64,000 nt of DNA from Cloeon dipterum (lineage: Eukaryota; Arthropoda; Insecta; Ephemeroptera; Baetidae): assembly GCF_949628265.1 (NCBI RefSeq), contig NC_088786.1:25379681-25443680 (forward strand). The letters are read 5' to 3'. The notes beneath the pieces are model-generated. The model saw nothing but the letters and a program-made list of their open reading frames with translations, did no database searches and had not been told where the DNA came from. Positions within the stretch are counted from its first letter, which is position 1, and the number at the start of each line of letters is the position of its first letter. Of this stretch, positions 1,204 to 36,489 are shown piece after piece. Both the position numbers and the translations under genes were made by a program.

Positions 1204-4200
1204 ATGCTGAAAATTGGATTTCTAGGCTCTGGAAAAATGGCTCAGGCCTTGGCAAAAGGGTTTATTGCATCAGGTGAGAGATTTCAATTTATTGCATCAT
1301 TTTAGTGGGACTGTTTCATTTAGTGATCAATAACATCAATAATATGGGTTGACTAAAATTATTCAAAATCAATTAATACAGCTTCATTTTTCTTCACTAA
1401 AATTATGAAAAACAAAACATTTTGACAATTGAAAAGTTCCAACTGTAAAGGGAATGCCATGAGCTCTAAATAATCCACTTTTTCGAAAATAACCCGCAAA
1501 AGTCGCATTATTAATTTTCGATAAATTCCATAAATTCGTTTCTTCTTGAACCCACGCACTTAGCTGTGCACCATTTATTTTTGTCTTGCCTAATGACCTC
1601 GCGCTTTTGTTGCGACCTATGACACGGAATAGTGTGCTTTTAAGATAACAAGAAAAAAATGTGAAAGATCTCACACTATAAACAAATCTCAAATTATTAA
1701 ACAAAATCACACAGGTCTTACAAAAGGAGAGCATTTGATTGCTAGCTCTCCGCCAGCGGACCAAAAATTTCTAAATGAATTTAAGGTAATTTTTCTAATT
1801 TTAGCGATCAAATGGTTTGTAAATAAATTGCGTGATTTCGATTGCAGAGTTTTGGTGGAAAAACTACCCACGACAACAAAGAAGTTGCTGAAAATTCCGA
1901 GATATTGATTCTGGCTGTGAAACCGTTTGCAGTGACTTCCGTTTTGGACAGCATTAAAAGCAATTTTAGCAACTCGCATTTGCTGATTTCAATCGCCATG
2001 GGAATTAAAATCGACACGATGGAAAAAGTAATAATCTCATTTACGACAAAGGATTTAAATTGTATATTATAGAGAATAGAATTCGTAAATGAACGATGCA
2101 CGCTAAATGGAAGGAGGGCTTTGCTCTCCCGGAGCAGAAGCACTGCGTTAATTAATTTGTCCTTCAAGACCAGTTGCGGTGCGTCAACAGCAGCAGTAGC
2201 TCCAGTGCCTTCTTTTTAAGCTTATGTTTATCACACTTAACACTCAGATTATCCAAATGAACGCTGATGCAAACGAGATCCTATAAAATGTGCAGTCCCT
2301 TTTAAATAAAATTTCAAAACTTGATCTTCTTAGTGTCTTCCTGGTAAGTCACGGGTTATGCGGGCAATGCCGAACACCCCAGCAGCCGTTGGAGCGGGCG
2401 CCAGTGTCATTTGCGGAGGTTCGCACGCCAGGCCAGAAGATGTGATGGTCACAGAAAGACTCATGACTGCCGTGGGCACGTGTAGAACAGCGCCCGAGTC
2501 CAGTTTTGATGCAGTCACGGCGCTTAGCGGCTCTGGACCCGCATACGTAAATATTACTTAAATTTGCATTTAGATTTTTTTACAAATTCGTTGCACCTAA
2601 AGAATAAATGGAATAAATTTATTGCGTCATCTTACTTAAAATAAACATTTTTAAGTGAAAGGAAAACAGAGTCATCAGCTTATCGTCATTCGGATGTATT
2701 ATTTTTTGTCTCATTTCCTATGGGTAATCGTGATTCAAAAATATTAGTCATTAAATTTCCAAAAGATTGAAAACTAAATATTTGTATTTGGTAATTTAAA
2801 ACGACCCCGTACAGGTAGACATCAGAGCCAGCCGCGCCGCGCCGCGCCAGCCGACTCAGCCGGTCCTTTTCTCGAGCCGCCAGCCGCCGACCTTTTTAAT
2901 CGGCTCAGCCAGCTGAGCCGCGCCAGCCAGCCAGCCACCCATAATTTTTATCTTTTCCATTTTTTCATTTCACGTGCCCCAAAGTTAAAAAAAAACTTTG
3001 CACCGTTCTCTGTTTCATGGAATTTTTTTCGAAGTAGTTCGTACTCAGTAAGTCGACTGTCTTAAAAAACGCTGTTTTTCTTGTGAGTTGCAAATTTATG
3101 TAACTTGCAACCGCATTTTTCCTCCGCAAAACCGCATTTTTTTCGGAAAAACCCCCAATGTGCAAAAAACTGTTTTAAGCGTTTTTTCTGCAATTTAGAG
3201 CATTTTTTAAATAACACATGCATTTTTATGGAAAATTCTCATGATGGATAATAAAAAACAGGGATTTTTACAAAATCAGTATAAAAGCCACTGATGGTTT
3301 CACTAAGAGTCTGAACATTTTAACTCTTCGATCATCGCAAATTTCCAAAATTTCAGCTTTTTACGGCGCGAAATATGACTTTTTAGGGGTTAAAATCTGA
3401 AAAATACGCGAGACCCCAAAACTGGGGGTTTGTTGCCAGCTGATTTTTTGCACATTGTGAAATTGGCGAACCCTGTTCGCAACGTGTTTTTCCAATATGA
3501 AAACCGATTCCCACCTAATTCGCTTCTTTCATCTTAAAATTTCATTGCTTCTTCATTCCTAAAAAATATAAACTTAAATTATGGCCATTTGAAAGGAAAA
3601 ACAAAAATGTAATTCAAAAAACTTAATTTTAACATTACTTTGTCGTCCATTTTATAGCATACTTATAGCTTACCAGGGTTCCCCAATTTTGCAATGTGCA
3701 AAAATTAACCACTATTTTTTGCGTATAATACCAGCGGTAAAATCCTCCAGATTTAGGTTTTTCTGCATTTTTTCGAAAAACCCAAAAATGGTCACATTTC
3801 GTGTCAAAAGTCAGAAATTTTGGAAAATTACGATGACTTGAGTGTTAAAATTTTCGGTCTTTCAGAGGAATTAACCCACCGATTTTTTAAGTATCCCTAC
3901 TTTTGGTCATCCAGCATCATGAACATTTTTGAAGTTCTATAAAAATGCATGTGATTCAGAAAAAAATCGCAAAATTTCATAAAAAAAAACTCTAAAATAT
4001 TTTTTAGCAATGCAGTTTGTTTTTTTTTCCGGTAAATGCGGGTTTTTGCGATCGCTGCAGTTTACAGCGTGTTACACGCATCGCGTAAGTTGTTAGTTCC
4101 GATTTTTGAGTTATGCAGTCTTAAAAAGCACATGAGCCGGCTGCAAGCCAGCCGCCAGCCGAGCCGATGAAATTTTGCCAGCCAGCCGCCGATGTCTGTA

Positions 4201-4721
4201 TTGACGGCTCGGAGCCGGAAAGCCAGCCGCCGATCAAAATGCGGGCGGCTCAGATGTCTACGTACAGGCGTAGACTAATATTTTTTGACTATTGATAACA
4301 CTCACTGCTGGATAAAAAACCAAAGAGTTTTACTTTATTATTTATCACACACTTAAAAAAATGCAATTTTCGTAGATACTGGCTATGATAGAAGCCTTAT
4401 CAGACGGGGGCGTAAAAATGGGTCTACCCAGAGACCTGGCCACCCAGCTAGCGATTCAAACAACTTTAGGGGCGGCGACTATGGCCAAATCGTCGGCAGA
4501 GCACTTGGCTGTTCTGCGAGAGGCAGTCACGTCCCCTGCAGGTGAAACGAATTCACTGATTTTTCGTTTGCAGATTTTTAGTAATGAAGCGTGTTGTTGT
4601 CCAAACAGGTTCAACCGCAGCGGGATTGCACGTGTTGGAAAAGGGCGGAATTAAAGGCTGCATTGCTTCGGCCGTGGAGGCAGCCACCGAGAGGTGCATT
4701 CAAGTCAGCTCAAAATACTGA
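1204..4721 (+). CDS. P5CR: Pyrroline-5-carboxylate reductase
   Basis: Six exons: 1204-1273, 1715-1785, 1848-2027, 2334-2546, 4376-4541 and 4609-4721 (813 nt, 270 aa). The enzyme reduces pyrroline-5-carboxylate to proline with NAD(P)H, the last step of proline synthesis. Residues 3-13 (KIGFLGSGKMA) form the Rossmann dinucleotide-binding loop. They are followed by LILAVKP, the MPNTPA motif, the TALSGSGPAY motif and the family signature around IEALSDGGVKMGLPRDLA. The C terminus, through the AVEAATER motif, forms the helical oligomerisation domain. The protein lacks an N-terminal targeting extension and the longer C-terminal tail of PYCR1/2, so it most resembles the shorter, cytosolic PYCR3 type. 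The start is the first Met, directly before the nucleotide-binding strand. Intron 4 (1.83 kb) is much larger than the others because it carries the foldback element at 2815-4261. Confidence 0.96.
2815..4261. mobile_element. Non-autonomous foldback transposable element inside P5CR intron 4
   Basis: The ends are inverted: the left end reads GTAGACATCAGAGCC and the reverse complement of the right end reads GTAGACATCTGAGCC. The 6-mer GTACAG lies directly outside both ends (2809-2814 and 4262-4267), as expected for a target-site duplication. Inside, GC-rich AGCC/GCCGCC-rich outer blocks (about 2815-2941 and 4131-4261) flank an AT-rich core that is itself a long imperfect inverted repeat. Matching arm segments include 3210-3270 with 3893-3960, 3310-3400 with 3780-3870, and 3443-3478 with 3675-3708. 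No transposase-like reading frame is present, so it would depend on an enzyme in trans. The superfamily cannot be decided; a 6 bp duplication does not point to one. It lies wholly within the intron and leaves the splice sites intact. Confidence 0.82.
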
Positions 4722-36386: not shown

Positions 36387-36390
<4 letters not shown>

Positions 36391-36476
<86 letters not shown>

Positions 36477-36489
36477 CTCTCGCTCTCTT
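36391..36489. repeat. CT/GA dinucleotide tract next to the Notum promoter
   Basis: An uninterrupted CT run spans 36391-36473, followed by slightly interrupted CT to 36489. On the Notum-sense strand this is a GA tract just upstream of the inferred start site. It could bind GAGA factor and keep the promoter nucleosome-free, or it may be a simple microsatellite. Confidence 0.9.

Follow-up and report, generated by a model that had tools for sequence, protein, structure and literature searches.

What is the 1.4-kb insertion that lies in a predicted intron of the pyrroline-5-carboxylate reductase (P5CR) gene of Cloeon dipterum, and how does such an element move? It was noticed in a stretch of 64,000 nucleotides (NC_088786.1, positions 25,379,681 to 25,443,680, assembly GCF_949628265.1; hereafter the window), in which an initial annotation described it as a large foldback transposable element, possibly of an undescribed family. 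The present analysis indicates with high confidence that the element is a copy of a dispersed non-autonomous DNA transposon whose members share common ends, an ordinary kind of mobile DNA. It spans window positions 2816–4260 (1,445 bp), has the termini TAGACATC...GATGTCTA, and is bracketed by the target-site duplication CGTACAGG at 2808–2815 and, in the same letters, at 4261–4268. Eight base pairs is the only length between 4 and 12 bp that fits, and the boundary is fixed by other copies, whose flanks agree over exactly 8 bp outside TAGACATC. The inverted ends and identical flanks reported at first are thus present in the window sequence, with different limits. The element had been placed at 2809–4267 with a 6-bp duplication, GTACAG, which is the inner part of CGTACAGG; the shorter reading arose because the G and C beside TAGACATC were counted into the inverted repeat. 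The argument for novelty that was built on a 6-bp duplication is not supported at the corrected length.

Relatives were sought in the 190-Mb host assembly of 10 contigs; 40 of 796 candidates were scored, and copy numbers are lower bounds. At least 13 other long matches with 90–97% identity were found, two of which are the arms of one composite locus, together with many more diverged or partial relatives (from ∼66% up to 95%, the latter for pieces of L034). The left terminal inverted repeat of the window copy is TAGACATCAGAGCC (2816–2829, plus strand) and the right one is TAGACATCTGAGCC (4247–4260, minus strand; the reverse complement read inward from 4260). The corresponding end pattern, TAGACATCWGAGCCRSCC with up to one mismatch, occurs 108 times in the genome, compared with 2 occurrences of a reversed-pattern control. 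Alignment of 18 two-ended copies longer than 1.2 kb resolved two main subfamilies that are 78–85% identical to each other. The first contains ten copies with 94–98% identity, including the window copy, which is 95–98% identical to the nine others; the second contains five copies that are 90–95% alike and a sixth, L032, at 85–87%. L036 and L039 are two further long copies. The longest open reading frame within the element encodes 66 aa, so no transposase gene resides inside. Other copies with the same ends, for which the initial annotation had proposed a genome search, therefore do exist, and its view of a non-autonomous family is well founded.

The duplications were analysed in the 32 two-ended pairs of the examined loci, with ends matched at up to two mismatches. 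Loci with one end or none fall outside this set, as do two far-apart pairs on C3 and L038, in which the two possible pairings carry 6 and 7 mismatches. An exact 8-bp duplication flanks 19 of the 32 pairs; at every other length between 4 and 12 bp, none of the pairs shows a fit. The other 13 carry one mismatch (two pairs), two mismatches (one), three (two), or five or six (eight). Both the duplication and the flanks are common to L036 and L039, which are taken as one duplicated insertion and counted once, leaving 18 independent exact duplications. An empty site gives further evidence of insertion. When the flanks of L016 are joined with a single ACCATGGC, they form an uninterrupted copy of another host repeat, as found in L037, L045, L046, and L093 (85–90% identity). 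These four further copies of the repeat keep the empty site of L016, which raises confidence in the transposon reading. The interrupted repeat is itself dispersed, ∼450 bp long and 88–90% alike among copies, with ends near TGTCAGGG...GCTGACA; it lies at about 940–1387 in L037, 445–887 in L045 and L046, 1840–2283 in L093, and on both sides of the element in L016. In L037 a copy of this repeat is nested within an element copy, and in L016 the nesting is the other way round, indicating that the two families were active in overlapping periods.

The insertion sites show a sequence preference. The sample comprised 20 sites, namely the 18 independent exact duplications and the two with one mismatch, for which the left copy was used. 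The pattern YRYR (Y, pyrimidine; R, purine) occupies duplication positions 3–6 in 11 of the 20 sites, compared with 5.6% of window 8-mers (p = 2e-9; the bias was spotted before testing and is the best of 80 four-position patterns scanned). The runner-up patterns, with p = 7e-8 and 9e-7, both lie in registers adjoining YRYR, and the central pair is RY in 15 of the 20 duplications against a background of 24%. Insertion targets therefore favour nnYRYRnn.

The initial annotation had also described GC-rich outer blocks around an AT-rich core, and this composition is evident: GC content is 0.67 in the first 100 bp, falls to 0.23–0.45 in the interior, and rises to 0.59 and then 0.62 in the final two bins. 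The left block (2816–2950, plus strand) contains 11 AGCC and 1 GGCT, and the right block (4126–4260, plus strand) contains 10 AGCC and 3 GGCT. Since AGCC far outnumbers GGCT in both, the blocks are arrays that run on one strand. Alignment of the left block with the right one scores 27 in direct orientation, 25 inverted, and 20 inverted without the tips, compared with a mean of 15.9 and a maximum of 26 for 200 shuffles of the right block. These scores alone hardly separate a direct from an inverted arrangement, and the GC-rich blocks form no clear inverted arms.

Cut-and-paste movement in trans is suggested by the ends and duplications, by the empty site, and by the absence of coding capacity. 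A transposase supplied from elsewhere would recognise the ends TAGACATCWGAGCC... and probably also the AGCC arrays just inside them. It would then excise the element and reinsert it at staggered cuts 8 bp apart, with a preference for nnYRYRnn.

Whether the inverted arms take part in this movement bears on the foldback interpretation. In a self-comparison of the element, the best inverted match scores 71.6 bits, which none of 200 dinucleotide shuffles reaches (maximum 48.2). An inverted repeat beyond chance is therefore present, as first proposed; its extent over nearly the whole element is not. The similarity is patchy and consists of ∼20 bp at the tips, a pair of 231-bp arms in the AT-rich core (3161–3391, plus strand, 67% identical to the reverse complement of 3779–4009, minus strand), and a 31-bp inner pair (3445–3475, plus strand, 90% identical to the reverse complement of 3674–3704, minus strand). 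A foldback element has long inverted repeats that reach its ends; here, the long arms are confined to the core and only the ∼20-bp tips are inverted at the ends. Of the 18 long copies, 15 carry a self-inverted arm pair (66–71%), with carriers in each subfamily; none was detected in L032, L036, and L039. In the remaining 14 of the 32 pairs, the arm pair recurs at 67–72% in L034 and in the halves of L061, the ends of L064 form a palindrome (89%), and L060 and L042 contain inverted stretches of only 28 and 21 bp. A search for the arm pair detected none in L062, L063, L065, L066, L067, L068, L070, L077, and L078. Three of these short members, L062 (835 bp), L063 (455 bp), and L077 (691 bp), are flanked by perfect 8-bp duplications, indicating that the arm pair is dispensable for transposition; folding back is therefore not supported as the working principle of the family. 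Copies of the window element's subfamily are 94–98% alike, compared with 66–71% between the arms within long copies, which dates the divergence of the arms to a time before the dispersal of the copies. The arms have the look of an old relic of the core's origin rather than of a working part.

The same arms bear on the suggestion that a hairpin in P5CR pre-mRNA is a source of small interfering RNA, with a regulatory role. The minimum free energy predicted for the element RNA is −419, compared with −325 ± 12 for 20 shuffles (z about −8), and 217 of the 475 predicted pairs span more than 400 nt. If transcribed, the element would likely form a structured intron in this folding model, and this predicted stability speaks for the suggestion. 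However, identity between the main hairpin arms is only ∼67%, and they predate the dispersal of the copies; a regulatory role of this kind is considered very improbable.

An autonomous relative with the same ends, which the initial annotation had proposed to look for, was sought through both the ends and transposase domains. The genome contains 41 transposase-domain matches: 13 of hAT (PF05699), 18 of P (PF21787), 9 of MULE, and 1 of Merlin type. Of these 41, all but a single decayed hAT at C4:33358307 lie more than 10 kb from the 100 ends (of 108) to which distances were measured. None of the 18 P-type matches is within 10 kb of these ends (nearest, 23 kb), none of the nine MULE matches is within 30 kb, and the single Merlin-type match is away from them. 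Genome searches with Zisupton/KDZ, DUF4371, and hAT-like RNase-H profiles (PF14291 and PF14372 among them) returned no matches, and control genomes were equally silent. When open frames from the hAT and P loci were compared with all other loci, only repeat-like matches resulted: the L054 frame hits the family's own core, the L052 frame hits GC-rich repeats, an L088 frame matches L069 over 30 aa in what resembles a non-coding repeat common to both, and the L093 frame match is the ∼450-bp dispersed repeat also found in L037, L045, L046, and L016. L078 and the interior of L064, used as queries, retrieved further repeats. A general scan of the transposase loci for inverted ends with 8-bp duplications produced two weak, chance-like hits.

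Several long loci were considered as autonomous elements and rejected. L060 (3.46 kb) contains element pieces, with no transposase found in it; L034 (3.13 kb), which has a perfect duplication, is an element that contains inserts; and L061 (4.53 kb) consists of two truncated copies in inverted orientation. L071 with L072 and L073 with L074, as candidate 13-kb elements, are tandem-array units that have family right ends on both sides and no duplication. In L069 and L079 all ends face one way, and L076 has a single end; the frames of these loci and of the 13-kb units lay outside the Pfam search. Some of these loci have structures of their own. The two truncated copies of L061 (C2:30704878-30709811) form arms of ∼1,525 bp that are 99.7% identical, including 220 bp of flank, around a 1.5-kb spacer; their ends face outward without a duplication, as in a recent inverted duplication or a composite. 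L064 (C1:37167812-37169808) has two right ends facing outward, and its flanks are also inverted repeats with the same open frame, which points to an inverted segmental duplication or an ectopic exchange. At C3:8792498-8935224 (L071–L075), at least nine of the listed ends are clustered. Two stretches of this cluster are neighbouring units of ∼20 kb, each with a family right end on each side of a 13-kb stretch.

The decayed hAT at C4:33358307 has a core fragment of the family on one side and the complete copy L028 on the other, which speaks for its being the remains of the autonomous partner. That identification is nonetheless very doubtful. Its 3′ end, which is common to the hAT loci L049 and L052, reads TAGAGCACTG... 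inward and not TAGACATCTG..., no sequence of the element family occurs in the 3.2 kb examined at L049, and L028 has no matching duplication. The decayed hAT is thus most likely a member of another family that landed beside element copies. Loci L049, L052, and L054 belong to this local hAT family, with TAGAGCACTG-type ends and subterminal GCGGTT repeats; L049 and L054 share more than 91% DNA identity.

As to the superfamily, a hAT-type transposase is the most likely candidate, ahead of a P-type one, and is proposed tentatively, at slightly under even chances. hAT elements generate 8-bp target duplications (excerpt of PMC3942097). The element ends begin TAGA, and the ends of the local hAT family read ...CTCTA, with GCGGTT repeats inside. 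hAT is placed first because of the strict 8 bp and the likeness to these local ends (TAGAG followed by GC-rich repeats). The Drosophila element mar is said to be a hAT-derived miniature inverted-repeat transposable element (MITE). Like such MITEs, the element has an 8-bp duplication, short inverted ends, and no coding capacity, and like the local hAT family it has repeats just inside the ends, AGCC in place of GCGGTT. It differs from both in the fifth base, the YRYR bias, and a length of 1.4 kb with inverted arms.

Several observations weigh against movement by a hAT-type transposase in trans. The hAT end consensus is YARNG, with a fifth base that is usually G; the ends here read TAGAC, in which the first four bases fit and the C does not. 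Ac-type and Buster-type hAT targets differ from YRYR, and the observed bias thus fits neither by these general standards. YRYR is absent from each of five flanks at local hAT ends, when alignment ends are taken as element ends. In eleven of the 32 pairs the flanking copies differ at 2 to 6 positions and so fall short of a near-perfect duplication; the two widely separated C3 pairs have none. The search by ends and transposase domains found no autonomous partner with the same ends, and the sole transposase match nearby, the decayed hAT, carries the different end TAGAGCACTG. Membership in hAT is withheld because of the misfits of the fifth base and the target bias.

P-element ends begin with CA and their known target has a central YYRR, unlike the TAGA ends and YRYR target found here. 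Together with the distance of all 18 P-type matches from the family's ends, this makes it unlikely, at perhaps one chance in a few, that the family is a non-autonomous P-superfamily element of the Galileo kind, foldback in look and mobilised by a P-type transposase. On its side stand the P-type domains themselves, one of which lies within a 611-aa open frame, and the 8-bp duplications of P elements and their MITEs (excerpt of PMC1562414). Galileo, as excerpted from PMC3573991, is a foldback-like P element with chimeric copies whose flanks do not match, and some copies here, L061 and L064, are similar; its flanks are 7 bp and its inverted ends long and internally repetitive, compared with short ends and 8-bp duplications here. 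The 611-aa frame (L080, C3:1833103-1833510) may represent either an intact element or a domesticated gene.

A Mutator-superfamily foldback like Tetris or Tm1 is a slimmer prospect. Tm1 is reportedly a foldback element likened to that superfamily, and MULE transposase has nine matches in the genome. None of these is near the listed ends, a comparison of positions only in which the MULE loci themselves were left unread, and all 19 exact duplications are 8 bp, never 9 or 10. By comparison, Muta1 duplications are given as 8 or 9 bp with no apparent preference in an excerpt of PMC5225508. Tetris, a Drosophila virilis foldback suggested to be Mutator (excerpt of PMC4079207), is modular and foldback-like with no autonomous copy found, as here, but its duplications vary from 8 to 10 bp. 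Among foldback-type elements described in the excerpted literature, Tetris and Galileo come closest. Five MULE matches of equal score with 392-aa open frames (C1:23191775, C3:2302727, C3:18641548, C3:34585713, and C3:35136858) suggest a recently active Mutator-type element in this genome.

It is also conceivable, with low probability, that the mover belongs to an uncharacterised transposase group with a strict 8-bp, palindrome-like nnYRYRnn target and same-strand AGCC arrays as its binding platform. We know of no family that combines this target with terminal AGCC arrays on one strand.

The host gene assignment rests on the downstream exon (4376–4540, plus strand), which matches P5CR_dimer (PF14748, E = 1e-16); the putative upstream exon (2349–2546) has no Pfam match by itself, and both intron boundaries were read by eye. 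Elsewhere in the window, a TC dinucleotide repeat of 49.5 copies (36390–36488) is the only tandem array scoring above 100.

With the duplication length corrected and the arms dispensable, searches for the family and its classification should rely on the terminal sequences and the 8-bp target motif. Discovery of its transposase would turn the YRYR bias and the same-strand arrays into a testable case of target choice; without it, the finding is routine repeat annotation.
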